NCBI RefSeq assembly: GCF_029227915.1
Contig: NC_079876.1
Span: 11,904,001 to 11,968,000, forward strand
Source of the DNA: Hydractinia symbiolongicarpus
Lineage: Eukaryota > Cnidaria > Hydrozoa > Anthoathecata > Hydractiniidae
Direction of reading: 5' to 3'
Length of the DNA stretch: 64,000 nt
Numbering within the stretch: the first letter of the stretch is position 1; each line of letters starts with the position of its first letter. Under the pieces are notes generated by a model. The model was not told where the DNA came from. It saw only the letters and a list, made by a program, of their open reading frames with translations, and searched no databases. Of this stretch, positions 8,793 to 59,738 are shown piece by piece. A program made the translations under genes and the position numbers.

Positions 8793-11700
8793 ACAGGCTA
8801 CTACACTCTACTACAAGCTATTACAGGCTACTACACTCTGCTACAGAGAAATACGCTCTGCTACGCTCTACTACAGGCTACTACACTCTACTACAGAGAA
8901 GTACGCTTTACTACAGAGAAATACATTCTACTACGCTCTACTACAGGCTACTACACTCTACTACAAACTACTACAGGCTACTACACTCTGCTACAGAGAA
9001 ATACGCTCTACTACGCTCTACTACACGCTACTACACTCTACTACAGAGAAATTCGCTTTACTACAGAGAAATACGCTCTACCACAGAGAAATACGCTCTA
9101 CTACGCTCTACTACACGCTACTACGCTATACTACACGCTACTACACTCTACTACAGAGAAATACGCATTACTACAGAGAAATACGCTCTACTACAGAGAA
9201 ATACGCTCTACTACGCTCTACTACACGCTACTACGCTCTACTGCACGCTACTACGCTCTACTACAGGCTACTACACTCTACTACAGAGAAATACGCTTTA
9301 CTACAGAGAAATACATTCTACTACGCTCTACTACACGCTACTACACTCTACTACAAGCTACTACAAGCTACTACACTCTACTACAGAGAAATACGCCTTA
9401 CTACAGAGAAATACATTCTACTACGCTCTACTACACGCTACTACACTCTACTACAAGCTACTACAGGCTACTACACTCTACTACAGAGAAATACGCTTTA
9501 CTACAGAGAAATACATTCTACTACGCTCTACTACACGCTACTACGCTCTACTACACGCTACTACGCTCTACTACAGGCTACTACACTCTACTACAGAGAA
9601 ATACGCTTTACTACAGAGAAATACATTCTACTACGCTCTACTACACGCTACTACACTCTACTACAAGCTACTACACTGTACTACAAGCTACTACAGGCTA
9701 CTACACTCTACTACAGAGAAATACATTCTACTACGCTCTACTACACGCTACTACACTCTACTACAAGCTACTACAGGCTACTACACTCTGCTACAGAGAA
9801 ATACGCTTTACTACAGAGAAATACATTCTACTACGCTCTACTACACGCTACTACGCTCTACTACATGCTACTACACTCTACTACAGAGAAATACGCTTTA
9901 CTACAGAGAAATACATTCTACTACGCTCTACTACACGCTACTACACTCTACTACAAGCTACTACACTGTACTACAAGCTACTACAGGCTACTACACTCTA
10001 CTACAGAGAAATACATTCTACTACGCTCTACTACACGCTACTACACTCTACTACAAGCTACTACAGGCTACTACACACTACTACAGAGAAATACGCTTTA
10101 CTACAGAGAAATACATTCTACTACGCTCTACTGCACGCTACTACGCTCTACTACAGGCTACTACACTCTACTACAGAGAAATACGCTTTAGTACAGGAAA
10201 TACATTCTACTACACTCTACTACAAGCTACTACAGGCTACTACACTCTACTACAGAGAAATACGCTTTACTACAGAGAAATACATTCTACTACGCTCTAC
10301 TACACGCTACTACACTCTACTACAAGCTACTACAGGCTACTACACTCTACTACAGAGAAATACGCTTTACTACAGAGAAATACATTCTACTACGCTCTAC
10401 TACACGCTACTACGCTCTACTACACGCTACTACACTCTACTACAGAGAAATACGCTTTACTACAGAGAAATACATTCTACTACGCTCTACTACACGCTAC
10501 TACACTCTACTACAAGCTACTACACTGTACTACAAGCTACTACAGGCTACTACACTCTACTACAGAGAAATACATTCTACTACGCTCTACTACACGCTAC
10601 TACACTCTACTACAAGCTACTACAGGCTACTACACTCTACTACAGAGAAATACGCTTTACTACAGAGAAATACATTCTACTACGCTCTACTACACGCTAC
10701 TACGCTCTACTACACGCTACTACGCTCTACTACAGGCTACTACACTCTACTACAGAGAAATACGCTTTACTACAGAGAAATACATTCTACTACGCTCTAC
10801 TACACGCTACTACACTCTACTACAAGCTACTACACTGTACTACAAGCTACTACAGGCTACTACACTCTACTACAGAGAAATACATTCTACTACGCTCTAC
10901 TACACGCTACTACACTCTACTACAAGCTACTACAGGCTACTACACTCTACTACAGAGAAATACGCTTTACTACAGAGAAATACATTCTACTACGCTCTAC
11001 TACACGCTACTACACTCTACTACAAGCTACTACAGGCTACTACACTCTGCTACAGAGAAATACGCTTTACTACAGAGAAATACATTCTACTACGCTCTAC
11101 TACACGCTACTACGCTCTACTACATGCTACTACACTGTACTACAGAGAAATACGCTTTACTACAGAGAAATACATTCTACTACGCTCTACTACACGCTAC
11201 TACACTCTACTACAAGCTACTACACTGTACTACAAGCTACTACAGGCTACTACTCTCTACTACAGAGAAATACATTCTACTACGCTCTACTACACGCTAC
11301 TACACTCTACTACAAGCTACTACACTGTACTACAAGCTACTACAGGCTACTACACTCTACTACAGAGAAATACATTCTACTACGCTCTACTACACGCTAC
11401 TACACTCTACTACAAGCTACTACAGGCTACTACACTCTACTACAGAGAAATACGCTTTACTACAGAGAAATACATTCTACTACGCTCTACTACACGCTAC
11501 TACGCTCTACTACACGCTACTACGCTCTACTACAGGCTACTACACTCTACTACAGAGAAATACGCTTTACTACAGAGAAATACATTCTACTACGCTCTAC
11601 TACACGCTACTAAACTCTACTACAAGCTACTACACTGTACTACAAGCTACTACAGGCTACTACACTCTACTACAGAGAAATACATTCTACTACGCTCTAC

Positions 11701-13486
11701 TACACGCTACTACACTCTACTACAAGCTACTACAGGCTACTACACTCTACTACAGAGAAATACGCTTTACTACAGAGAAATACATTCTACTACGCTCTAC
11801 TACACGCTACTACACTCTACTACAAGCTACTACAGGCTACTACACTCTGCTACAGAGAAATACGCTTTACTACAGAGAAATACATTCTACTACGCTCTAC
11901 TACACGCTACTACGCTCTACTACATGCTACTACACTCTACTACAGAGAAATACGCTTTACTACAGAGAAATACATTCTACTACGCTCTAATACACGCTAC
12001 TACACTCTACTACAAGCTACTACACTGTACTACAAGCTACTACAGGCTACTACACTCTACTACAGAGAAATACATTCTACTACGCTCTACTACACGCTAC
12101 TACACTCTACTACAAGCTACTACAGGCTACTACACTCTACTACAGAGAAATACGCTTTACTACAGAGAAATACATTCTACTACGCTCTACTACACGCTAC
12201 TACACTCTACTACAAGCTACTGCAGGCTACTACACTCTACTACAGAGAAATACGCTTTACTACAGAGAAATACATTCTACTACGCTCTACTACACGCTAC
12301 TACACTCTACTACAAGCTACTACAGGCTACTACACTCTACTACAGAGAAATACGCTTTACTACAGAGAAATACATTCTACTACGCTCTACTACACGCTAC
12401 TACGCTCTACTGCACGCTACTACACTCTACTACAGAGAAATACGCTTTACTACAGAGAAATACATTCTACTACGCTCTAATACACGCTACTACACTCTAC
12501 TACAAGCTACTACACTGTACTACAAGCTACTACAAGCTACTACACTCTACTACAGAGAAATACATTCTACTACGCTCTACTACACGCTACTACACTCTAC
12601 TACAAGCTACTACAGGCTACTACACTCTACTACAGAGAAATACGCTTTACTACAGAGAAATACATTCTACTACGCTCTACTACACGCTACTACGCTCTAC
12701 TACAGGCTACTACACTCTACTACAGAGAAATACGCTTTACTACAGAGAAATACATTCTACTACGCTCTACTACACGCTACTACACTCTACTACAAGCTAC
12801 TACAGGCTACTACACTCTACTACAGAGAAATACGCTTTACTACAGAGAAATACATTCTACTACGCTCTACTACACGCTACTACACGCTACTACACTCTAC
12901 TACAAGCTACTACAGGCTACTACACTCTACTACAGAGAAATACGCTTTATTACAGAGAAATACATTCTACTACGCTGTACTACACGCTACTACGCTCTAC
13001 TACACGCTACTACACTCTACTACAGAGAAATACGCTTTACTACAGAGAAATACATTCTACTACGCTCTACTACACGCTACTACACTCTACTACAAGCTAC
13101 TACAGGCTACTACACTCTACTACAGAGAAATACGCTTTATTACAGAGAAATACATTCTACTACGCTCTACTACACGCTACTACACTCTACTACAAGCTAC
13201 TACACTGTACTACAAGCTACTACAGGCTACTACACTCTACTACAGAGAAATACATTCTACTACGCTCTACTACACCCTACTACACTCTACTACAAGCTAC
13301 TACAGGCTACTACACTCTACTACAGAGAAATACGCTTTACTACAGAGAAATACGCTCTACTACACTCTACTACAAGCTACTACACTCTACTACAAGCTAC
13401 TACAGGCTACTACACTCTACTACAGAGAAATACGCTTTACTACAGAGAAATACATTCTACTACGCTCTACTACACGCTACTACACT
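8793..13486. repeat. 4.7-kb satellite array of a 10-bp unit with higher-order modules
   Basis: The whole array is built from 10-bp words of the form CTACANNCTA (CTACACTCTA, CTACAAGCTA, CTACAGGCTA, CTACACGCTA, CTACGCTCTA) and two 20-bp words starting CTACAGAGAAATAC (ending GCTTTA or ATTCTA). These are combined into modules of about 70-140 bp that recur in similar order. Register is kept over the whole array except for one 1-bp loss near 10191-10196. All other length change is in multiples of 10, so the array grew recently by register-preserving exchange. Because 10 is not divisible by 3 and no word creates a plus-strand stop in any frame, the array contains long open frames (8757-11990 and 11924-13543). 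These are by-products, not a protein gene. Confidence 0.95.
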
Positions 13487-41217: not shown

Positions 41218-44040
41218 CGTTAGATAGAATTTATCTTTTTTTACTGACATTTAAAGTAAGATGATGAGAAATGAGAATGAAAGGAAAGGAAAGGAAATAT
41301 AACTCTGATGTGAATCCTTTTTCTCCCTCTGGCATGTGAGAAACAACTGTACTCTATCGGAACGGCCTAAACTTCTTTTTTGATTTTGTAAACGTGAGAA
41401 TATTTCAAATTTTTAGCTTAGTCTTAACAGGTTTTATTTTTTTCGTCAGGAGTTTGGGTTGCCAAACGACATCAATGTAATCATGGAGGTTGGAACCAAA
41501 AATGATGTTTGTTCCTACTTGCAAGGGAGACTTTCTAACTAAAAATTTCTAGGTTATGTTCTGTTTACGTGCACTTCAAGAGTTACATACCAAATCATAA
41601 ACAGCACAGATAGCCGGAGTTTTAAACATTTATTTATTATTATTTTTTACTAACTTCAATTAAGTTTTACACGGATAAACAAATCTTTAACGTGGTTTTT
41701 GGGCAAAACAGGTGACGATTCTGAATTCTGAAAGGTGGAGATATTAACCCTCGTTGTGCGGCCCGTTTGTCAAAAAGCCCAAACCGCTCAGTAAGAAAAA
41801 GCGCTGGGGACGAGTTTGAAAAAGCTTAACTTTGACACATCTTTTATTCCAGATTCAATTATCCATAACTCAAGACAAAAAACGAACTAAATGTTCAATC
41901 CAGACTCATTTGAGAAACAACTTAAGCTTTCATTTTGGCATCCAGTAATTTGCGTCGGGGGACCACTGCCCCCGCCCGGACCCCAGGACAACCCATTCAG
42001 CTGTTGACTTTAGTTTAACATAAAAAAGAAGTGCAAGCATACAATGTGTCACAAATGCATTGGGCGCAAGCTAAGTAGGTGTGCGATGACACAAAACTGT
42101 GTTTGGGTGATTTTGCGCTGCATTGGTGACCCGTAACATGACCAAAAATCTCGGATTTGGGAAAATTTGCGGAGAGATTTCTTGGACAAATTATTGACAT
42201 TAAAGCCGGAGACTCTTCTAGACTTTCTTTTTAAAATTCAATGTTTTGGTCGCACTACTAGATCTAAGCCAAATTAGTTTGTTGAAATTGCTTATGACGC
42301 AGCTAGGCGGGCCTGTGAAACGCCCATGGCTATCCCGTATATATACGGGACCCGCATCAAAAGGGTTAACAATTATGGACAAAATGTAATGCAACATGGG
42401 AGATAATTTCGAATTTCGCCGGCACAAGATTGGTTGTTTCTATACTAAAGTTCCGGGCTTGGTTAAATCCGTACTTGTTTTTATTATTTTCCGAAATTTA
42501 TGCCAAACAAATGCTATCGTGTTTTACCGTCTTCTCACACAATTAAATACGCCGTAAATCACTTCACAGTTCGAACAAACAAACTAAGAACGCGACAAAG
42601 CCGGCACCGAAAAACGTTTTTGGTGAAAAAATTGTCTTTTAACCAAGTCCATCAGCCACCGACCCTTAAAGTCTGATGCTAAATTCCCACTGGAAAAAAT
42701 TTCTGCGTTGCGACGCGTTTTGACTTTATACGGTAGTCGCTAAATGACGCACACTCGCTGTTGGTTTACTGCGTGACGTCACGTTATGTGTTGCCGCATG
42801 CTAATAGAAGTATTTTTCATTGTTATTCTGAAATCACATGTTTTTTTTTTGGGGTACAAAGTTAAAAGAAAATATTTTAATATTCGATGTAAACAAAAAA
42901 AAAAAAAGAAGAAGCGATGATCATGTGGCGACGTGTCTCGCTTTAGAGAACTGCGTTATCCCTGTGAATTCCCTTAAAGGAACTGCTAAGAAACATATGC
43001 GAAGTTATATAGAGTAATATTCTTCGTACGAAATATTTTACACCCAGCTCATTCAGGTCTTGTGCCACAGATCATCTCATTTTCAGATGTGTTTATAATA
43101 AAACAAAAGTCTAAATGTCAACCGCAGTGATAAACCTCGCTTTGCTTTATATATGACTTATAAAACAAACAAGAACCCAAAAGATTTCCAACATTCTTTC
43201 CAATGTCAGAAATAACGCCTTTTGATACATGTTAGTTGTTTCTGTCGTCAGCACGACCTATCTTTCCGAACTTTGCGACCCCAGACGTTGATATTTTTGT
43301 TGAGCTGGTGCGGTGGAGATTTTAGATGCCATTAGCAAATTTCAAAAGCTCTCTACCTGGCATATGTTTGCACAAAAGTAGCGACTTTGTAGCCTGCAGG
43401 CATAACTAGTATTGACCATGATCTTTTTGGTTTACAAACACTAGCCCATTCCTAATTCCCACTAAAAGCGATAAATTTGCTCTTTACGAAATTAAATTTA
43501 CGCAAAGATGAATAAAATTCACTAACTTTAATTTTTTGCGAAAGAAAGAGTTTAATGAAACAACCAAACACATGAACAAACATAAATATGTTTTAGCCGT
43601 ACACACGGCGCGGCTAGCAAATATACTTTCACATCGATGTTGGCTTTCCACTTTTTCTAGTATCCTGTCCTAAATAAGGTGCACAAAGTATAAACAAAAG
43701 AGCTAAAGTTAGAATTATTTTTCTGGACATTCAAACCTTCTCACCCGTGTTATTGCTTCTCATCCTTATACCTGCTTACTGGTGCTATTTTTAGTTTTAT
43801 TTTATCCTCCTAGGGACAATGGAATTCATGGTATATTTAACTTCAAGAATTTAAGATGAAAAAAGAAAGGTAAGCAAGACCACATAATTACTATCTAACT
43901 GATTGAATTTTGTTGGGCAAATGTCTATTTTCTTTCTTACTTGATTCCATTTTTACATTTCTTGCAGGGTACAAGCACAGGTAAGATCATATCATATTAA
44001 CAAAATTACAAAAAATAAATTGCATTATGATTAATTTTAG
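41218..44040. other. gene-free stretch
   Basis: No gene supported. Notable small items are one foldback-type end, GCGCTGGGGACGAG, at about 41801, and a perfect 18-bp palindrome TCCCGTATATATACGGGA at about 42334-42351. Short frames do not resemble any family. Confidence 0.35.
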
Positions 44041-44803
44041 CTAGGTAGGTAGATAGATAGGTAGATAAGTAGATAGGTAGATAAGTAGATAGGTAGATAA
44101 ATAGATAGATAGATAGGTAGATAAGTAGATAAGTAGATAAGTAGATAAATAAATAGGTAGATAGGTAGATAAATAGATAGGTAGATAGGTAGATAGGTAG
44201 GTAAGTAGATAGGTAGATAAGTAGATAAGTAGATAAATAGATAGGTAGATAAGTAGATAGGTAGATAGGTAGATAGGTAGATAAATAGATAGGTAGATAA
44301 GTAGATAAGTAGATAGGTAGATAAGTAGATAAGTAGATAAATAGATAGGTAGATAGGTAGATAGGTAGATAGGTAGATAAGTAGATAGGTAGATAAGTAG
44401 ATAAGTAGATAAATAGATAGGTAGATAAGTAGATAGGTAGATAAATAGATAGGTAGATAAATAGATAGGTAGATAAGTAGATAGGTAGATAAATAGATAG
44501 GTAGATAGGTAGATAAATAGATAGGTAGATAGGTAGATAAGTAGATAAGTAGATAAGTAGATAAATAGATAGGTAGATAAGTAGATAGGTAGATAAAGAG
44601 ATAGGTAGATAAGTAGATAATTAGATAAATAGATAGGTAGATAGGTAGATAAATAGATAGGTAGATAGGTAGATAGGTAGATAAGTAGATAGGTAGATAA
44701 GTAGATAGGTAGATAAGTAGATAAGTAGATAAATAGATAGGTAGATAGGTAGATAAATAGATAGGTAGATAAGTATATCAGTAGATAGGTAGATAGGTAG
44801 ATA
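44041..44803. repeat. 763-bp (TAGA/TAGG/TAAG)n tetranucleotide array
   Basis: Tandem TAGATAGG/TAGATAAG tetranucleotides throughout, with only scattered substitutions. The minus-strand frame rich in YLSTYLLIYLS is an artefact of the array. Confidence 0.97.
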
Positions 44804-47244: not shown

Positions 47245-50101
47245 TTATAATTCGTTCGGAGTATGTTTTTTCTTTCCCAACTTTGTACAGCTAATATTCG
47301 TGGCGGAAATGTATTTCTTCCAATATCCGTTGTTGTCATCATGGAACCAAACTTCGGTGCAACAACCTGGAACTGCAAATATTTCCGCTCCTCTGACCGG
47401 TTTCTTACCTGTGAACGAATTCCCAACATCTCTTACGTTACCCAGAATGCATCTGTTTGTGTTAAGGAAATAGTGCATGTTTTTGTTTGAGTGAGGTTTA
47501 ATTGTTAGAAAGTAATGCTGATAACTGTTCCAATCAAATTCAACGTTGCCCCTGTAAGACATAAACAAAGATTTCGTAAATTACAATTACCTTGAGAAGT
47601 AATTAAATTAGTTTGTACATTATCTTTAAATTAGTCCCTGCAAAAAATATTGAAAAACTTGCTATTCGTACTAATTTTTTTCTCTCTGATTTGCTTAGAA
47701 CTACAAATTTCTTATATCTCAGGTGACATAAGCTGCGACCCAAAAATGACTGCGCGAAAAATCATGATATCAACTTTGCAGCCTCTTGTATTGATGGTTA
47801 AAGGTTTATTATGTTAACAAAGTGGCAAGACGCACAAAAAGGTTGCTACCCGCGTCTTATATACTGCAGAATTGCTGAAAAGGCTTTCCAGAGCTTTCAT
47901 AAATCGTGTGTTGCACATTCTAAGAAACATTACCTCAATTTTTACTTTACACAGTATAAAATGAGGAACAAAAATTCATCAAATTCTTTTTTTGCCAAAT
48001 TCGCTAAATTTAATTCTCGCTTGAAATATAAGAACCTTTCAGACCTACCTTTAAATAGGCCCCCAAAGTGAAAGTAAAATACTCATCTTAGCAAAAAAAG
48101 CACATTTATGTGAAATATCAAGAACAATGCATCTTACCAAACATAATTAAGTTGATATGGATCACGAATTCCTTTAAAAGAGAATGAAAACTGACTATCT
48201 CGAATGGTTCCATATGTGCACCAGGCATATCTCCAATGCTCGTATATTTGTTCAGCGTAAAGAAAATATAAGCCAAGTAGAAATATAATCTTGATGTTAA
48301 AGCTGGGTAGATAAGAGATGAATTTTTTCACGTACTGTACAATTCTTTTCGAAGTGGAGGACACAGGGAAGTAACATTGATAGAATGTTTTCAATTTTTC
48401 TACAGCATCGCGGTGGTTTAAAGTTTCGAAGATCTGAATTAACGTTTGCACATTTTGGGATAAATTTTTTCCATTTTCTTCAATAGCCTCACCAAAATCC
48501 TTAAAAATTTCGAGTTTGTCGTCCTCTTGGACCAACTTAAACGACACACATAATTGTCGAAACCTTTCAATCTTTTTCTCATCGTACTCTTCAATACATG
48601 CAAAAAGCAATCGTGAAAACTCAGTAGCATTCATCTTCCAATTGAAGTCGTTTTCAATGGTGGTCAATTTCTGTTTCAGCAACGTTACATCAGCTACAAT
48701 GAAGTCGACACCAGATTGCGTGTAAGTTACGCTTCGTTGAAGTTGATTAACACGTAATGTGTTACCGTCTATCTTTCCATTTTCCAACATGGAAATCCAA
48801 TTTCTCATGACATGAAAATCGGATTGGAGGTTGTTGATACTAATGCTACTAATATTAAACTTTTTTTCCAAAACGGATACATTGCTCTTTGTAAGTGAAA
48901 TGTCAGATAAAAGGTCTCTGACTTCACCAGATAAATTATCCATGACAATGCTATTGACTTCGCTAGCTGTGTGTAAATCCGTTGTTGATATACGTACGGA
49001 TTTCGCCTCGATTTGAAGTAGAGAAAGCTGTTTAGAATGATCAAGCACATTGGTTTCTGCAGCAGCAATTCTTTTGGTGTTGTCGTCAACTTTTTGTATC
49101 TCCATATCGCTCACGAACTGTTCCAAACAAGAGAGTTTCGTTTCCAATGTTTTCACGATTTGACCTGTGTACATTTTCAAGGTTCCTGTTTCCAAGTCGT
49201 GAAATAGAGATATGTTGTTGTAGCATAAGCCATTTAAAACGGAGTCAATTGTTTTGACGTAAGAAATGAATTGCGCATGCGTTAAAATGTTATTGATACT
49301 CCCATGGTTAAAGTTATTGCGCAGCTCTCGCGCACGTAAACAAAATGCGGCTTTACTTTGGTCACCAGGACGTGGTACCTTTTTTTTCCATCCACCCTGC
49401 GGAGGAGAGAGTTTTGTTTCGTAACAAATAACGATAATGATCAATGTTATATCCCAATCCTTTGCGTTTGATTTACCAGTTGGAGGGCAGAGAACGAGCC
49501 ATTGATCAGGCTTGACAATTGATTTTAGTTCACTTTGATAATTATTCTTAAAACTTGCCATCCGGTTGAACAATGCAACTTCATTGTCAGGTAGTCCCGT
49601 GTAGGTAGGATCGTTATGGTAGTTGTGCAGTATCCAAACAAGTGCAGACTTCACGCATAACTGCAACATTAAGCCTACCCTCATCCAGAAATCACATTGT
49701 GGTATCATTGATGTGGATGCTGCAATGGATGCTGCAGTGGCTGCTGCAGAATTGGTCGCTACGCCAACTCCGACGGATGCTGCAGTATTTGTTGCTATGC
49801 CAACTCCGACGGATGCTGTAGTATTTGTTGCTACGCCAACTCCGACGGAAGACGCAATAGCTGTAGCACATCTCGACGTTGACATTGTGGCGCCTGTTGC
49901 TGATGAAATTGTTGCCATAGCAACACCTGTCGAAGAGGCTGTGGTAGATGCGCCCGTGGCAAACGACGTAAAGGAGGTAGATGTGCTCGATGGTGATGTC
50001 GTTGTCGAGTTCATAATCGGCAAGCAGGAGTAAATGATAAACACAGCTATCGTACTATTGGAAAAACGTATGATGTAACACCCTAAAATAATTTTAAACA
50101 A
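47245..50101 (-). CDS. HEPN (DZIP3-type)/coiled-coil/transmembrane protein, two exons
   Basis: Exons 48138-50101 and 47245-47551 join in frame (donor TTTGGTAAGA, acceptor TCTTACAG), giving 756 residues. A second possible start is the Met at 50014. The N-terminus is Ser/Thr/Ala-rich with three 12-residue repeats (SVGVGVATNTAA type, about residues 86-121). Residues about 145-300 match the HEPN domain found in DZIP3-like proteins: YHNDPTYTGLPDNEVALFNR, KPDQWLVLCPPTGKSNAKDW, DITLIIIVI, and the putative RNase motif RxxxxH in RELRNNFNHG. A long coiled-coil-like stretch follows (about 310-480), then a predicted membrane span near 600-617 (IIFLLGLYFLYAEQIY). The C-terminal part of about 140 residues has several cysteines that I do not recognise. 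HEPN proteins often act in RNA cleavage or innate immunity, so the role is inferred from family only. The first Met opens a hydrophobic stretch that could be a signal anchor. Confidence 0.75.
49785..49860 (-). repeat. 36-bp coding minisatellite in the HEPN gene
   Basis: A 36-bp unit (plus strand words GCAACTCCGACGGATGCTGC and AGTATTTGTTGCTAC) is present about three times within the N-terminal coding region. It encodes 12-residue repeats and keeps the frame, so copy-number changes alter protein length without a frameshift. Confidence 0.8.
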
Positions 50102-50219
50102 AAATCTGTATTTTATTACTTATTTTGAATTTCCACTCAGTAGCAACAAAACGGAACGAAACAAGAAAAATATTTAAATTTAATTGGCTCTGATAATTAC
50201 TCATCTGTTTCTAATTTCT

Positions 50220-51921: not shown

Positions 51922-52080
51922 ATGAATTGGTTCAAAAAGGCAATCAGCAAACTATATAGCACCGTGTCTGCACCAGTGGCAGCAACTCGCGACGCTCTTG
52001 CCGATTGACTACAGAGTGTGCAGGATACCGTTGCCTTCTACTATAACAAGGCAAAGGAGCAAATTTCGGGAGGTACAACA
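51922..52080 (+). pseudogene. 5' part of a decayed ORF split by the 5.9-kb transposon
   Basis: An ATG at 51922 opens a frame containing NWFKKAISKLYSTVSAPV, broken by a TGA at 52006-52008, after which the same frame continues with protein-like content (LQSVQDTVAFYYNKAKEQ) up to 52080. There the large transposon begins, exactly on a codon boundary. The rest of the ORF resumes at 57994. I do not recognise the family with certainty. The style (short amphipathic helices, multi-copy appearance) makes a mobile-element or virus-like origin possible. Confidence 0.55.
52074..52080. repeat. target-site duplication, left copy (TACAACA)
   Basis: The seven bases TACAACA lie immediately outside the left terminal inverted repeat and are repeated directly outside the right one (57987-57993). 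This fixes the ends of the 5.9-kb element. No longer direct repeat is possible, because the next flanking bases differ. Confidence 0.9.
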
Positions 52081-52400
52081 TATGGAGTCATGTACTGGAC
52101 AAAAGTCACGCTATAGAGTGTCGTGTTGCGTAGTAGAGTGTCGAGGTTCAATATAGATCCCAAGGTCGCGAGGCGTAGTATAGGTGGACGCGAGGCGTAA
52201 TAGTGAGACGCGTATGTAATAATAGAGAGACGCGAGGCGTAATAGAAGGACGCGAGGCGTAATAGAGAGACGCAAGGCGTAATAGAGAGACGCGAGGCGT
52301 AATAGAAGGACGCGAGGCGTAATAGAGAGACGCGAGGCGTAATAGAGAGACGCGAGGCGTAATAGAAGGACGCGAGGCGTAATAGAAATACGTGTAAAGT
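52081..52400. repeat. left terminal inverted repeat with 20-bp subterminal array
   Basis: The first ~120 bp match the right end almost base for base. They are followed by about nine tandem copies of a 20-bp unit (GACGCGAGGCGTAATAGAGA, with AGAAG variants) at about 52187-52390. Arrays of this kind in other transposons bind the transposase, and that role is inferred here. GC content is clearly higher than in the surroundings. Confidence 0.9.
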
Positions 52401-52896
52401 CGGAGCGTAATAAGATGTGTGATGGGAGGATCCGTGTCAGAGAAAGAACTACGCTTACATACATCTTCACTTTTTTCTTGTCATGAATACTTTAAAAGGA
52501 AAAAATGAAAAAAAAAGATTCCATACTTGGTGTACAAGGGCTACTAGTTCATCATAACCTCTCGTGTATATTATATGCCTATTAGAGGGGAGTTATGATA
52601 AGCAGAATAACAACCTCGATCAGGGCATAATACAACTTTTCGACGTTGGGACGGGGAAACAAAAAAGAGCGCGCTCTATAATTAGGCACGGGAAGAACTT
52701 ATTAAATGACTACTGCTGTGGCTATTTTTTCGCGTGGTTAGAAGAACTGAAGGAGCTTTATTTTACCTAAGCATAATATCTAGTACGTATATAGTGAACA
52801 AAATGTTTGAATTTCTTCTTTGTAATGTATCTAATGTAACTAATGTCAAGTTAAGCAATTCAATCAAAAGTTCTGTGAGTGAACTAATAGTGGTGT

Positions 52897-54339
52897 TCAT
52901 AACAATGTACTTTCTACGACCTGAACAGTTCGAAGAAACACTTCGATACCGAAGTTATCGCAATTTGCCATTGGATCGTTAGATCTACAAAATTCCAGGT
53001 ATAAGTCATTACTTTGAAATGGATGATTTATCTCGGGAACCACAATAGCATCGTCACGGGTTTCGATATAATGACTCGGTACACTCCAATCTATACCATA
53101 TGAATCGCAGTCATCGACAATATCATCTTCTGACGGTCTCCTTTGCAACAACAAACCTCTTTCCCATAATTGAAGAGGAGAAAGGTTTCTCTCTGTTCGG
53201 ATAGGATGGTGATCATAGCCCAGGATAAATCTTTGAAAATGTGCATTTATTCTTGGAATAAAAACATAATGAAGGCAAAACAAATGCAACTCATTCGATA
53301 TATCCAAGGCTCCTATCTCTTCCAAGTAAGTGAATATGTTGTGGTATATGTATGTGCAGCCGTGGAATAGATCTCTCCAGAACCTCTCTATCCTTTGGTT
53401 ATGGCAACTTTTCCCAGCGATAAAGCTACCACGATTACTTCCTCGTCTTGATATCATAAACCAAGCAACGTCTACATTTTCCACCCCATGATCTCCTCTT
53501 ACACGCGACGGCAAGCCAAAATTTTGTACTGCGGTCAGAAATAAATCGAGTACTACAGTAGCCTTGTTACTTGATCCGCACGACAGAAACATTAGACGCC
53601 TAGAATACCCATCTATGCCGCCATGAATGACTATCGACCATCTTATCAATTTGTGATTGCCGTCTATATGCCACAATGACCTTGGCGCTGCAACACTATA
53701 TTTTCTTCTTCGAACTACATTACGTTGCAACGAGCGCATCAATAGCCCTGATGGATCAACCCGCCACATACTATCACGAACAACTTTCCAAGGAATGTGA
53801 TAACCATGAGACAGTAAAAAACCTTTCATTCTACGTATGCCACAGTTAGGAAAATCTGAAATAATTTTTTTGACATGTTCATCAAGTTCCTCGTCACCAA
53901 TCATAGTGTGCGATTTAGGTTCAATATCAAACTCTTTAAATCTTCTTTGAATAGTTTTTGCACTTACTCCGAACATTTCAGCTATTGCCGTCTGCGAAAA
54001 ATTCAACCTCACTAAAGTTTTTAGAGTTTCCTCAGGTATATCGAAAGAAGGCCTGCCTATCTTGTGCCGTACAGTTTCCGCGTTACTAGTTTTGTTCACT
54101 GATTGAATTATCACTGATGCTTGATGAATACTACTCAGTACATTTTCGGTTATAACATCTGGATACTCTAAAGCTGCTCTAGAGCAGAAGCTGTAAAGTT
54201 CATCAAGTCTATAGACAGGATAATCCAAATCTGCTGTATTCGCGTCAACAAAGGATGACAATAACGACTGGATTAGTTTCAATGTATCAACAACAGAATT
54301 CTTAATAAAATCAACTGGACTCAATTGTTGTATATTCAT
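52897..54339 (-). CDS. integrase-like DDE transposase of the 5.9-kb element
   Basis: A 480-residue protein from the Met at 54339. That start is chosen because TTTTATTTTTCAG, an apparent splice acceptor, lies just upstream, and an in-frame Met at 54396 would fall in that intron-like stretch. A helix-turn-helix of about 45 residues ([20 protein letters not shown], then [13 protein letters not shown]) precedes an rve/integrase-type catalytic core. The DDE residues are visible as the Asp in LWHIDGNHK, the Asp in [10 protein letters not shown] and the Glu in [14 protein letters not shown]. The reading frame is intact. It presumably cuts and pastes the element by binding the terminal repeats. It is closest in style to IS3/retroviral-integrase-like eukaryotic transposases, but I could not test the family assignment. 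Confidence 0.85.
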
Positions 54340-54399
54340 GTTATATTCTGAAAAATAAAAGTACTGCATAAGTACACGAAATGTCAACAAAACCACTTG

Positions 54400-55051
54400 T
54401 TTGTTTAATCATACAATAAATCCTAAAAATGCCAGACGAAATTCCCTCCAAAATGTTCGAAATATGTTTAAAAGTTACTTAACGATAACAGTTCTGTTTT
54501 TAAATAACTTTCTCTGAGTGAGTCGACCGTATATAAGTAGAACATTTTTTCACATAAAGAACAAAATAACAAACATAACCCTTGTGAAATAAAAAGAAAA
54601 GAAAAATATCTTCTTGGTTAGCACAGCTGAATGATAATGCAATGCGTAACTTGATCACGACTATAACCATACATCTTTTCCATATAAAAGTTAGAAAACA
54701 AACAAAATAGAACAACAAAAAGACGAACTTATAAATGCATGTGCAGTATATATAGACTTCAAGGAGCGTACAAGTCAGTCATAAATTCGAGACTAATCAT
54801 AATCAATCTGATCATTAAAAGTATGTATATCACTGGAAGAATTCTTGCATAGGACTGACAGGATTTTTATATTCCCCCACCAGAAAAAAAATCAGTTTTA
54901 TAGAAGTGAGGCATATTTTGGAAGAAAAAGAAAAAAAATCGGCATTTTTTCTCAATGACAACATAATAAGAACAATGACAACATAAGCTAAAAATCGATC
55001 ACCTTGAAGGAAAAAAATAAACTCGTTAGTGCCCCTAAAAATTTACAATTA
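54400..55051. other. intergenic spacer inside the 5.9-kb transposon
   Basis: AT-rich sequence between the transposase and the E3 ligase genes. It probably holds the 5' exon and promoter of the transposase and the 3' UTR of the ligase gene. No exon could be placed confidently. Confidence 0.4.
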
Positions 55052-57414
55052 TCATGGATTTGCGAATCCCTTTGATTCACATGCTAAAGCTGTTGCCAAC
55101 ATATTGTGAAACGCCTTTTCTACAGAATGAACTGTAGGTAGGTAGATTATTTTTAAACATGCAGAGGATTTGCACATACTGTTTTTTTCATCATCCGACA
55201 TGTATTTCACTCTGATTTCATTTTTCATACCATCCAGTGGAACAACTGTATGACTAGTACAGAAGGCAAGTACTTTACTCAATGTCATACTGTCACTTTT
55301 TTCAATAAACGACAGAAAAAATTTCTTTGCCTGTGTCTCCACGAAGGAAGTTGGTTCGTCAAAACTAAAACATTTGATAAATTCTTTACTCTCAATCATG
55401 CGATAACCAGCACAAAATATTTGATCCATAACTTTCCAATGACACCGAATCGTATTCAAGAAATTGCACGAGCTCAAACCTTCGAATAACATGTCTGAAG
55501 AGTTTCGGCGTGACAATATCACATCATTCAAAATGAGTTGTTGAATCAGTAATGGGACATTTTCTTTGTTAATATTCTTGTCGGCAGGCCAATGCGCAGA
55601 ATTAATAAGTGACCAAAACACATCTTGCTTCTGATTGTCCTTGTAAAGCAGTTTGTCTATATCGTCCTTTGTTTTACATTGATCAAGTGATTCAATCAAT
55701 TCAATCAAATTTTCAGTTGTTGCATTTGCTGGTATGTGGCTTTTATTCAAACTTTCAATCAAACTGTCGGTATCTCTACCACACATGTGTAAAAAGTATG
55801 GTTTTGCTAATACTGGGAAGCCGGTGTCAACACCAGCAATCAATGAATGTACGATAATCATACCAGCAACTTTGAAAAGCACAGCTTTTGTGATGTCTTT
55901 CACAGGCAACAAACTGTTATTTTCACCTTCAAATAGACGATTTTTAACTTCTTCTAACAAAAGGTTGAAATATTCGGTTTTCATTGCCCCACCATCAAGG
56001 CCGTCCTCTCCTTTAAACTCAATGATCAATTTTTTGGTCATAACTTGAGAATTCACAAGGTTCCTTTTGTAAAATCTCAAGGATTCCATCCAAAGATTGT
56101 CACGTTCAATTTCCAAAGTGATTGTATCATTTTCTGAAGCAAGAGATGTAATTTGATTGAGAATTTCTTTTAAAGACATGTCCTTATCTACACATTTAAT
56201 TTGCAGCATGTCAGACATATTTTCACTTGCACTTTTCTCACTCAAAATATTGGCTGCCACATCGATAGATTTGGTATTCCGTAAAATGTCCTGAATTGTG
56301 GCTTTAGAGATTCGAGGAAACATTGCCGACAAAGTATCGATATGGGGAGAAGTACTTCCTACTTCTTTTTCATTCGATGGCCCAGCTTCATCGTCTATCA
56401 TCTCTGGAAAAATGTCATCATCAAGTTGACAATAAGCTTGATGGAATCTTAAATCATTTAACGGATATTTCTGATTACATCGTACACAGTTAACTTCAAT
56501 ACCTGAATCCATAGTTGGTTCCTCCATTGGTAAGTCGCTCTGCACTGGTCTGATGTATATTACAGCGTGACCGGGTACTAAATTTTTTAAATAGCTGATA
56601 GAATAACCATCTTTTCTTGGTGGTATCAACACCAATGGTCGGTTTATTCCACCACTCTCAGCCCTCAGAAGTTCAATGCCACCACTCTGTGATGATAATT
56701 TTGGATAAGCTTTTGTTAACTCTTCCAGAAGCATAGCATGTGTTCCAGTTTTGGAAGGAAAAACAACTTTTTCAATTCCGAGACCAACTTGGTTTAGCTC
56801 CATTAATTCACGTGTATTAGGTGAAACTGATGTATCTTTGTAGCTCAGTGCACAGAATTTATGGGTCCATGTGTCCTTAATGAAGTTATTAGAGAGACGT
56901 GGTTTCTTTGCTTGTGGGCGATATCGGCTACCACCAGCATTCAACGCTGGAAATTGCTTACTGAAACAGAACAAGAATTAAAATAAAAATCTGTCTCAAA
57001 CATAATAATCTTTCTACTCAGTGTATACAGAAAAAAATTAAAGTTGAACAAAATCAAAAAAATGAAAAATGTTATAAAAAGGTACAAAGGCACGAAAAAA
57101 TTCAATAGTCACAATCAGCATAATGCCTGTGAGCAGTACTCCTGGAGAGATGATTATTGAAACTTATCGAAAAGATACAAAGGAGGCAATGATCATGCTG
57201 GGAGCAGAAATTCACAACTCTTAAAAATATCAACCTACTTGAAATCTTGTAGAATTCTCTGATGTTGTGGACTTGGATGTAAGTTTGGACTTGGATGTGA
57301 GTTTGGACTCTGGAAGATGTTCTGATTTGGATTATTTTGAGTACTTGTTGTTGATGATGACAGACCATCCAATGCATTATTCAGTCTGTCTATAGCGTCT
57401 TTCACTTTCTGCAT
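55052..57414 (-). CDS. transposon-borne HECT-type E3 ubiquitin ligase with C2HC finger and CUE-like region
   Basis: Exons 57239-57414 and 55052-56960 (donor TCAAGTAGGT, acceptor TTCTGTTTCAG) join in frame into 694 residues. Order: a Ser/Pro/Asn/His-rich N-terminus with HPSPN repeats; an unrecognised region with PGHAVIYIRPVQSDLP; a C2HC finger resembling UBZ types (VNCVRCNQKYPLNDLRFHQA plus YC, about 217-236); a CUE-like ubiquitin-binding segment (HIDTLSAMFPRISKATIQDI, about 264-302); and a HECT domain (about 350-694). HECT features include FKGEDGLDGGAMKTEYFNLL and a candidate catalytic Cys near 660 in SSACLKIIYLP. It would transfer ubiquitin to unknown targets, perhaps host repressors or the transposase. 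The HECT domain resembles G2E3-like proteins. No disabling change is seen. A cellular gene captured by the transposon is the likely origin. Confidence 0.9.
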
Positions 57415-57704
57415 GCTGAATCAATTTTTAATTCCTAAAACATCACATACAATTTAGCTTGAAAGTTTTGAAAATTACAACCATGCCGATAAATATTCAC
57501 GATAGTAAGACAAAAATTTAAAAATGTCTTAAGAATATCCTTAAAGGAAAATGGAATAAGAACATTGTACATATTTGCTGCATTATTTAAAATTCTTGAA
57601 AATGGGTGCAGTGTCACTTGAAGAAAACCGTGTTTTGTCTTGATTAATTTGCCAGTCAATTGAAAAAATTCGAAATTTATTCACGGGTAACCAAGGCAAA
57701 TGGC

Positions 57705-57986
57705 GCGAAAGTACGCGTCCCCTCTTCCTACACGCCGCGTCGCCCTTGTTTGCGCGTCTTTCCATCACGCAACGCGTCCTTCTGTTACGCATCGCGTCCT
57801 TCTATTACGCCTCGCATCTCTCTATTATTACATACGCGTCTCACTATTACGCCTCGCGACTCTCTATTTCGCCTCGCGTCCACCTATACTACGCCTCGCG
57901 ACCTTGGGATCTATATTGCACCTCGACACTCTACTACGCAACACGACACTCTATAGCGTGACTTTTGTCCAGTACATGACTCCATA
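57705..57986. repeat. right terminal inverted repeat with 20-bp subterminal array
   Basis: The outer ~120 bp are the reverse complement of the left end (TATGGAGTCATGTACTGGAC at the tip), with a few differences such as GTGCAATATAG for GTTCAATATAG. Copies of the 20-bp unit continue to about 57715 and become more diverged inward, ending near GCGCGAAAGTACGCG. Confidence 0.9.
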
Positions 57987-57993
57987 TACAACA
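57987..57993. repeat. target-site duplication, right copy (TACAACA)
   Basis: Direct repeat of 52074-52080, immediately outside the right terminal repeat. Confidence 0.9.
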
Positions 57994-58386
57994 CTTTACG
58001 ATGAGGTGAACAGAAAGCACGGAAAGACTACACAGAGGAATATCAGGGGGGACGATATCCAAATGGTAGAAGACGGAGATAGAATCAAAACATGACGGTT
58101 CAACAAGCATTTGAACCAACCTCTAAAGGACGCAATGCAAAAAATTACGTCACACATAGAAATGCACGTAAGGGTTGTGTATAGTTTTAGTTGTGATATT
58201 TACAAGGGTGGCGTTTCTAATTACAATAAAACTAAGAGCTTCAGGTTGCTGTCAAGTATAGCGAAAATCGAAGCGTTTATGGAAGAATGTGAAATGAAGC
58301 GTCTCGATCTGGAGGATGGCGAGTTCTGGACTAAGGCTTATGGTGGCTCACCAATAAAAAATACCCGATTTTGGCCAAAATTTTGA
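57994..58386 (+). pseudogene. 3' part of the decayed ORF split by the 5.9-kb transposon
   Basis: The frame broken at 52080 resumes at 57994. If the element and one duplication copy are removed, the two parts are in the same frame. A TGA at 58093-58095 interrupts it, after which protein-like sequence continues (DAMQKITSHIEMHVRVVYSF, FMEECEMKRLDLED) and fades out after AYGGSP near 58350. Both stops are TGA where CGA would keep the frame, as expected from CpG decay. The family is not securely recognised. It is dead in this copy. Confidence 0.55.
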
Positions 58387-58611: not shown

Positions 58612-59018
58612 AGGGACTGTCCGGTGAAAAATTATTTTAAAATATTATTTGTAATTTAAAATTATGACATAGAAAATACCTTTCTTTTTTGATATTATTC
58701 ACTTAATCACATATATAAACAAACTTTTTTATCGTAGATGTGTTAAAGCATGGCTTCGTCTTGTTGCTGCAAATGCGCGCAAAACGGCCTGGGTTAAAAA
58801 TTTAATATGCGTAATTATGCATGTGACGTAGAACAGTGGTGAAAAACAGACTATGTAGCGAAAGTGTGTAGCGTTTTCAGTACAAATATGAACCCCCCTA
58901 GAAGTTAACTGTTTAGAAACTTATTTAAAAAAAACTTTTAATTTTAAACTCTTCTCTACAAATTATGAAATACGATTATTAATATGTCTTCGTCGAACAA
59001 AAATTTCACGGTATTAGG

Positions 59019-59738
59019 ATTTCAGATTCCGAAATAGCTTCACAGCCTAGGCGGGTTTTTAATGATGCTTTTGATGATCAGGCAGACTTCGATCCTCAGC
59101 AAAATCCTAGATTGTGTAAGCCTGTTACTGATTGGTGTCGTTGTGGTAAATGTGAGAGGATGCCGACAGAGAAAGAGTGTGTTTGCTGTGTTGAAATCGA
59201 TGCCATAAAATACTTCAATCTTAATGGTAGCGATTTATTTTTATATATTTCCAAAAATAATAAGGGGAGTTTATATTTCCAGACTTTTTTCTAACTTCAC
59301 GATAATTATTTTAAGATCAGGAATGCATCACACAGCATCCACATTTTAACTACATCGTGTTGTTGAAAGATGTGTTATGGACAGCGTTAGTCGCGCTATA
59401 TGACCGGGAAAGTCGCGGTTTACCTGAGCGTGACCATGTACCAAATAGGTAATCTATTTAATCTCTCCCGCGTTACTAAAAATTCGACGATTGACTTAAC
59501 TTATTTTGCTAAAAATTTTAGGACGTACCGTTACGGTGCTTATCGACAGTTTTGCTGGTTTATCCACAACAAACTTGGGCGAGGTGTACGACGTGTCATA
59601 CCAGCGTGTGCAGTTTGTAAGATCAGGGAGGAATATCCTAGTGTAGATGGACGATACACTGGGTTTAAGGGTGACGCAGAAGGGGGAGAACTGGTTGAAA
59701 TGGATTTTTCTTGGATAGCGGAGATAGAAGACGAATAG
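59019..59738 (+). CDS. P2X7 C-terminal (ballast/zinc) domain protein carried by the Kolobok element
   Basis: Exons about 59026-59226, 59316-59448 and 59522-59738 join in frame across GT-AG introns. They encode the conserved blocks of the P2X7 receptor cytoplasmic domain: DWCRCGKCERMPTEKECVCC, then CITQHPHFNYIVLL, then YRYGAYRQFCWFIHNKLGRG followed by RRVIPACAVCKIREEYP and YTGF. The clustered Cys residues are those that bind zinc in the P2X7 ballast. There is no channel part, so this is a stand-alone soluble domain. The start is uncertain: an ATG at 58984 is in another frame and hits a TAG at 59035, and an acceptor-like TTTCAG at 59020-59025 suggests an upstream exon that I could not place. 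Known mainly as a domain multiplied in invertebrate genomes; its role within a transposon is unknown. Confidence 0.85.

Follow-up and report, generated by a model that had tools for sequence, protein, structure and literature searches.

In the genome of the hydrozoan Hydractinia symbiolongicarpus, we analysed a stretch of 64,000 nucleotides (hereafter referred to as the window; contig NC_079876.1, positions 11,904,001 to 11,968,000 of the forward strand), of which the positions 52081-57986 comprise a copy of a DNA transposon with a length of 5906 bp, flanked by inverted repeats and a target duplication. With hardly any room for doubt, this copy represents a recently active cut-and-paste transposon of the IS3EU type that contains two genes, one for a transposase and one for a HECT-type E3 ubiquitin ligase. 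The gene of the ligase lies between the ends of the element and is moved together with them. Considering the structure of the element, its set of copies, the recurrence of the gene pair in other families and the conserved catalytic centre of the ligase, we regard the latter as a lasting component of this transposon lineage within Hydractinia, which is probably kept because its activity helps the element. This usefulness is deduced from the persistence of the ligase.

The matching terminal repeats and the 7-bp duplication TACAACA, both noted in a preliminary description of the sequence, were confirmed. The outermost arms of the inverted repeats (52080-52212 and 57855-57987, including one base of the duplication at each end) comprise 133 nt and are 97% complementary, and a wider alignment of both element ends extends over 234 columns (86%). 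The target-site duplication (TSD) is exact on both sides. The element is nested in another dispersed repeat, whose flanks (51930-52073 and 57994-58160) each have at least 39 further matches in the genome, with 88-98% for the left one; a Pfam scan of this flanking repeat gave nothing significant. Besides the window, 39 places for the left and 39 for the right flank were found among the matches listed, and at 21 of these places the flank halves adjoin each other and the element is absent. The gap between the halves amounts to exactly 7 bp, i.e. one copy of the TSD, at 15 of the 21 paralogous empty sites, and to 2, 8, 10, 10, 23 and 23 bp at the remaining six. The element had also been called intact, which holds true for its two open genes but not for its full length, since the window copy lacks 617 bp (near 57629) that are present in all five other copies compared. 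No long open frame runs through this stretch, which is therefore considered non-coding.

The transposase is encoded on the minus strand by a stop-free open reading frame (ORF) at 52897-54408 with 503 aa, which matches PF24764 with an E value of 3e-78. The catalytic residues in this frame are D249, D306 and E341, with 34 residues between the latter two. A Pfam scan of the protein listed no integrase zinc finger and gave helix-turn-helix matches instead, all of them below the curated cut-offs. The best matches of the predicted model (predicted local distance difference test, pLDDT, of 79) were the Rous sarcoma virus (RSV) intasome, IstA and the mouse mammary tumour virus (MMTV) intasome. The earlier assignment of an undamaged, integrase-like transposase is thus in line with these data.

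The same holds true for the second gene, which had been described as an undamaged E3 ligase with a zinc finger, a CUE-like segment and a HECT domain. Its stop-free ORF (55052-56977, minus strand) comprises 641 aa and shows a HECT domain with an E value of 4.5e-14 and 53.2 bits (curated cut-off 23.9) as well as a CUE domain (PF02845) with an E value of 1e-5, both above the cut-off. A predicted intron would join an ATG exon in frame, resulting in a predicted product of 694 aa. All four ligands of the C2HC motif are invariant across 11 aligned relatives; Pfam zinc-finger matches in relatives were below the cut-off. In a profile of the HECT relatives, Cys607 aligned with the catalytic cysteine (TCFN) of UBE3A. 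The alignment of ten HECT sequences, consisting of the window protein, two relatives and seven other Hydractinia loci, showed that F, T, C and P of the motif F-x-T-G, Cys607 and Pro614 are invariant in 10 of 10 sequences and that the G is nearly so, at a mean column identity of 24% in the aligned region. Since the catalytic centre is intact, the ligase is likely to be catalytically active. The predicted model of the protein (pLDDT of 74) has a predicted template modelling score (pTM) of 0.52, at which the arrangement of the domains is unreliable. Its best Foldseek match was 1zvd (E value 1.8e-13, template modelling score 0.38 by query and 0.59 by target length), and it matched the HECT structures of SMURF2, HUWE1 and NEDD4, with an identity of 13-19% for the best structural matches.

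Among the protein relatives, P0003 (transposase, 51%) and P0122 (HECT, 43%) each originate from a single contig of 10225 bp, and presumably both sit on one shared contig, which is the only hint at how the two genes are placed in other animals. A third protein search with the HECT profile gave no new relatives, and no relatives of the transposase or the HECT protein were found in viral contigs. Since scoring in the two HECT protein searches was limited to the 7998 candidates with the most shared words, named animal HECT relatives were possibly missed.

For the distribution of the element, the whole assembly (480.9 Mb, 76 contigs) was searched. The 41 matches listed for the terminal repeat are accounted for by 17 two-ended elements, by a rearranged cluster on C10 with six ends and by a single end on C1. 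Exact TSDs were determined for all 17 two-ended copies, with 6 bp in 14 of them and 7 bp in three including the window copy, so that the duplication of 7 bp is exact in the window but represents the minority form for the family. HECT sequence is present in all 17 two-ended copies, several of which hold both genes between the same ends, and the HECT gene is dispersed inside elements rather than being a single-copy host gene. Accordingly, the mobile pair of transposase and ligase proposed in the preliminary description exists. Both genes are open in eight of the 17 copies (one with a deletion of seven residues in the transposase) and both are broken in four, while in the lone-ended C1 copy the HECT frame is complete and the transposase truncated. 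The nine full-length HECT frames differ at a single site, with the window copy as the odd one, and among 13 full-length or nearly full-length transposase frames ten share the same sequence, two deviate from it at one site and the remaining one has the deletion. This near-identity of both genes shows that the family is young and leaves no signal from which selection could be deduced; the comparison of dN/dS (non-synonymous to synonymous substitutions per site) of the HECT gene across its copies, which had been suggested as a check, is accordingly uninformative.

The 17 insertion sites comprise 16 distinct target sequences, and two copies share one duplicated segment. These two (L011 and L012, C3 at 4.46 and 4.47 Mb) show identical flanks and the TSD GCCGAG at a distance of 10 kb, and represent one insertion that was later duplicated with its surroundings; by eye, their flank resembles a tRNA gene. 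The C10 cluster (L014-L017 and L066, C10:7938486-7954529) consists of deletion copies with exchanged TSDs. The CGGGAG of the left copy recurs in the flank outside the end at 7950283, and the GTTTAT of the right copy in the flank outside the end at 7950215, which would be consistent with an inversion or recombination of the intervening piece. In addition, the cluster comprises two tandem copies (period 3744) that start directly inside element sequence.

The pairing of both genes is not restricted to the window family. The genome search with PF24764 gave 151 scored matches out of 705 candidates, of which 150 were listed, and the search with the Pfam HECT model gave 141 matches, which were merged into 92 loci. 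A Pfam-HECT locus was found within 6 kb of 39 of the 150 listed transposase loci, compared to 0.35 on average and at most 4 in 2000 random placements (lengths of C7 and C13 rounded). Conversely, 37 of the 92 Pfam-HECT loci lie within 6 kb of a listed transposase. Using all HECT queries, the number of paired transposase loci increased to 71 of 150, with a random mean of 0.81 and a maximum of 5 in 1000 trials (length of C7 rounded). The additional queries were HECT proteins of further families that had been taken from elements, which favours element-linked genes and makes the Pfam-only figure the fairer one. Since the window family also contributes a good part of both counts, the argument rests on the separate families rather than on the totals. 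The 39 pairs comprise 12 with both genes on the same strand and HECT upstream, nine on the same strand with the transposase upstream, 17 convergent and one divergent arrangement, two of the 17 convergent ones being second transposases paired with an already counted HECT locus.

Three other families with both genes were delimited, each with a TSD of 6 bp read from one copy. F2 (L079; 5695 bp) shows TATGGGG ends, the TSD CACCCC and a convergent HECT gene with several exons. F3 (L080; 6080 bp) has TATGGAACG ends, an inverted repeat of 493 nt at 99.6% and the TSD GTAGAC, and its HECT gene lies downstream of the transposase on the same strand. For F4 (L081; 4585 bp), TACGATGG ends, the TSD TAAAAT and a convergent HECT gene were determined. 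The window transposase shows an identity of 41% to that of F2 and 37% to that of F3, and F4 is more distant. In parts of four more types (L084-L087), transposase and HECT frames adjoin each other as well. For two types not flagged by Pfam HECT (L082 and L083), HECT-like frames were recognised by eye that Pfam left unscored. L082 showed, at one of its copies, a weak match with the window HECT (E value 4.4e-4), and its catalytic exon was not found; the aligned sequence of L083 shows the pattern of F-x-T-G, cysteine and proline. The ligase had been regarded as an unusual passenger of a single element. The pair is real, but this view understated it, since families of this genome that have diverged strongly also carry such a pair.

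Selection on both genes can be assessed between these families. For HECT, dN amounted to 0.38-0.99 in five comparisons, with dS saturated in four and 2.58 in the fifth, and the frames were open. For the transposase, dN was 0.26-0.67 and dS was saturated in five comparisons; for each gene, a sixth comparison was between nearly identical loci. Frames remaining open at saturated synonymous distance speak for long-term purifying selection, and the HECT ligase has very probably been maintained by it. Furthermore, the similarity matrices of transposase and HECT agreed over nine pairs with an r of 0.71, a value reached in 4 of 5000 permutations, for families that are related to one another and with several short HECT pieces.

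A possible contact between the two proteins is indicated by SAM-type domains. In F3, such a domain begins both proteins, with 27.4 bits for HECT (cut-off 23) and 22.5 bits, just under the cut-off, for the transposase. SAM-like segments on both sides were also observed at three more loci (C11 at 5.78 Mb, C7 at 14.24 Mb and C10 at 19.37 Mb), where the HECT-side segment of C11 passes the cut-off with 32.7 bits and that of C7 scores 12.8 bits. Based on pairwise scores, the transposase-side and HECT-side segments form two groups with a weak similarity between them. A transposase-side hit was found within 6 kb of 10 of the 12 HECT-side SAM hits, most of these ten being F3 copies. The window family comprises no SAM-type domain. 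SAM domains often bind one another, and the most straightforward assumption is therefore that the ligase and the transposase come into contact.

Several observations weigh against a lasting and useful ligase that cooperates with the transposase. Using all HECT queries, 79 of the 150 listed transposase loci showed no HECT match within 6 kb; two types of this kind are L082 and L083, in which HECT-like frames were recognised by eye. Five of the 17 copies of the window family contain a full-length transposase and a broken HECT gene, so that not every copy requires the ligase in cis. Within F2, the pairwise dN/dS ratio ranged from 0.36 to 1.36 for HECT and from 0.52 to 5.67 for the transposase at few substitutions, a pattern that is read as the decay of recent copies and leaves current selection unsupported. 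The type of permutation test applied to the matrices counts related families as independent. Regarding the SAM-type domains, the support is weak beyond F3: neither of the transposase-side segments of C11 and C7 has a Pfam match, and for 13 of the 23 SAM hits on the transposase side no counterpart on the HECT side lies nearby.

Based on these data, different explanations for the ligase have to be considered. An independent insertion of the repeats on either side of a host HECT gene, which would make the pair accidental, is practically out of the question: the same ends, TSDs and gene order occur at 17 sites with 16 distinct targets, the paralogous empty sites comprise no element, and no supporting points were found. 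It was accordingly rejected on the basis of the TSDs, the empty sites and the copy set. It is very improbable that the HECT gene is a host-captured passenger without a function, which decays in most copies. Such a decay would be consistent with the broken HECT gene in nine of the 17 window-family copies and with the near-neutral ratios at few changes in F2, but HECT genes lie beside transposases in many diverged families, in three arrangements and with an invariant catalytic motif, and the open frames despite saturated synonymous sites as well as the agreement of the similarity matrices also contradict this explanation. Likewise, a passive one-off capture is disfavoured by the recurrence in diverged families. 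A role of the ligase in the competition between transposons or for the benefit of the host, for example by destroying rival transposases or by having been partly taken over by the host, seems improbable; the coexistence of many related families in the genome, resulting in an abundance of rivals and cross-mobilised deletion copies, would fit such a role.

If the ligase is useful to the element, its target could be the transposase or its DNA complex, or the host. For the latter, the ligase would ubiquitylate repressors of transposons, such as small-RNA or chromatin factors, enabling the element to escape silencing in analogy to the role proposed for transposon-borne TET/JBP dioxygenases. This is a credible alternative, given that TET/JBP genes, to which a role against silencing is ascribed, are present in fungal IS3EU relatives according to the part of the source available (PMC12730594). 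The CUE domain, the zinc finger and the conserved N-terminal region of the ligase could bind other substrates, and ten HECT N-terminal regions share this conserved region and have no SAM domain. On the other hand, the pairs of SAM-like domains found in some families suggest the partner protein rather than a host factor, and no host target is known. We tentatively favour the transposase or its DNA complex as the target over host repressors. The ligase would most likely act in trans on the transposition complex. In one group of families, its recruitment to the transposase would depend on the paired SAM-like domains, and in the window family on other N-terminal contacts. At the complex, ubiquitin would be attached to the transposase or to proteins at the cut ends, which might limit the amount of transposase, dismantle the complex after the transfer or call in repair. 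An even more far-reaching and rather doubtful extension is that the IS3EU lineage in animals is a two-component system, in which a dedicated HECT ligase has moved and diverged together with the transposase and is recruited via matched interaction domains, so that ubiquitin would control the life cycle of the transposition complex.

For classification, the element was compared with known systems. IS3EU elements are described with TA..TA ends and TSDs of usually 6 bp in the part of the source available (PMC10045372). We determined TATGG..CCATA ends for the window family and TA..TA ends for F2, F3 and F4, together with TSDs of 6 bp in 14 of the 17 window-family copies and in the one copy of each other family. 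Since these ends and TSDs match IS3EU, the element is filed there, an assignment that follows the published description. As far as the accessible text goes, fungal IS3EU elements have TAYGG..CCRTA ends, an alpha-kinase gene and, in some cases, TET/JBP genes (PMC12730594). The Hydractinia elements share with them the type of ends, the TSD of usually 6 bp, an integrase-like DDE transposase that is probably of the IS3 type and the adjoining extra genes; they differ in the extra gene, which is a HECT E3 ligase, and in the 7-bp TSDs of three of the 17 copies. For Styx from Zymoseptoria, an IS3EU element with reportedly two encoded proteins is given as the ancestor; Styx resembles the present case in this two-protein ancestor, in its 6-bp TSD and probably in its transposase type (PMC10853768, seen in part). 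Unlike the element described here, Styx is fungal, comprises about 7.9 kb and four coding sequences, and HECT or ubiquitin is not mentioned in the accessible main text of the same article. The Ginger1 elements, many of them from Hydra, are likewise integrase-related cut-and-paste elements with enzymes of the ubiquitin/SUMO pathway, namely OTU or Ulp1 domains, and in the part of the article available a role of the ubiquitin pathway in transposition was proposed (PMC2836005). Their OTU and Ulp1 proteases are fused domains that remove the modifier and their TSD comprises 4 bp, whereas here a separate E3 ligase gene would add ubiquitin. A membership in Ginger1, for which an H2C2 finger, a GPY/F motif, an OTU or Ulp1 domain fused to the transposase and a 4-bp TSD are characteristic, was rejected due to the TSDs of 6-7 bp, the ends, the lack of an OTU or Ulp1 match and PF24764 as the best core match. 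IS481EU, whose elements end in TNT..AYA and have a TSD length of about 4, 15 or 25 bp, was also rejected, since only TSDs of 6 or 7 bp and TATGG..CCATA ends were observed.

A connection of transposase and ubiquitin ligase is also known from RAG1, a transposase-derived recombinase with ubiquitin-ligase activity of the RING type in the same polypeptide; in contrast, the ligase described here is of the HECT type and comes from a second gene. With animal HECT E3 ligases like UBE3A and SMURF/NEDD4 it shares the HECT fold and the catalytic cysteine, while its architecture of N-terminal region, C2HC motif and CUE domain is not assigned here to one of the animal subfamilies listed in the available part of the reference (PMC2837046). 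No report of HECT in a transposon was found among the listed titles and beginnings of abstracts on HECT or ubiquitin with transposons or IS3EU; Repbase, which may record the pairing, was outside this search. IS3EU and ubiquitin occur together in two papers, one of them on an unrelated matter and the other being PMC8965078. The main text of the Hydractinia genome paper (PMC11067881), as far as accessible, mentions neither HECT nor IS3EU. Altogether, the element is an IS3EU transposon with an accessory gene, which introduces an enzyme of the ubiquitin pathway into an integrase-like transposon; it represents a recurrent two-gene design and not a new class. The features of the window copy are summarised in Table 1.

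Table 1. Coordinates of the features of the transposon copy within the window.
Feature	Position	Strand	Remark
Left target-site duplication TACAACA	52074..52080		exact copy at 57987-57993; paralogous empty sites with 7-bp gap
Left terminal inverted repeat, transposase side (inverted repeats start TATGGAGTCATG)	52081..52212	+	97% complementary arms
Subterminal array, 20-bp unit CGCGAGGCGTAATAGAGAGA, 10.8 copies, partly within the terminal inverted repeat	52167..52386		sparser copies at opposite end
Transposase coding sequence from Met of RefSeq-type protein P0001 (490 aa); catalytic D249, D306, E341 (numbered in the 503-aa frame)	52897..54369	-	open frame to 54408 (503 aa)
rva_4 integrase core (PF24764), residues 237-422	53143..53700	-	Pfam; fold matches RSV/MMTV intasome and IstA
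Helix-turn-helix stretch upstream of core	53929..54012	-	Pfam matches, none reaching its curated cut-off
HECT ligase gene, exon 2 (most of coding sequence, to stop)	55052..56960	-	
HECT domain PF00632; catalytic Cys607 codon 55157-55159	55064..55945	-	
CUE domain PF02845	56237..56350	-	25.5 bits, cut-off 21.1
C2HC zinc-finger-like motif C164-C167-H179-C183	56429..56488	-	invariant in 11 aligned relatives
Predicted intron, GTAGGTTG...TTTCAG, 278 bp	56961..57238	-	GT..AG, frame prediction
Predicted HECT gene exon 1 from ATG	57239..57414	-	
Site of 617-bp absence compared to five other copies	57629..57629		
Right terminal inverted repeat, HECT side	57855..57986	-	97% complementary arms
Right target-site duplication TACAACA	57987..57993		matches 52074-52080

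Outside the element, further features of the window were observed. A long satellite-like array (8793-13486) consists of a 20-bp unit within units of 100 and 290 bp and shows a strong strand asymmetry; its open frames of up to 1588 codons are not gene-like in appearance. At 44038-44803, an array of TAGATAGG/TAGATAAG-type units of 16-48 bp is located, with a very strong GC skew in the surrounding 2 kb. An open frame of 661 codons on the minus strand (48134-50119) comprises a HEPN_DZIP3 domain (E value 3.1e-13), and two adjoining frames on the plus strand (58983-59738) match the P2X7 intracellular domain (PF20478) with 38.0 and 18.9 bits.

The finding of a ligase gene inside these transposons has consequences for the annotation of cnidarian genomes, since with 37 of the 92 Pfam-HECT loci located beside PF24764 transposases, counts of host HECT genes may include transposon genes. 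The idea of ubiquitin and SUMO in transposition from the time of Ginger1 rested on proteases that remove the modifier, while the element described here would provide the opposite activity, namely an E3 ligase with an intact catalytic centre. Since near-identical copies are present in an animal that can be manipulated in the laboratory, a role of ubiquitin in transposition becomes testable. If the two-component reading is true, these elements would represent a transposon with its own ubiquitin-regulated transpososome.

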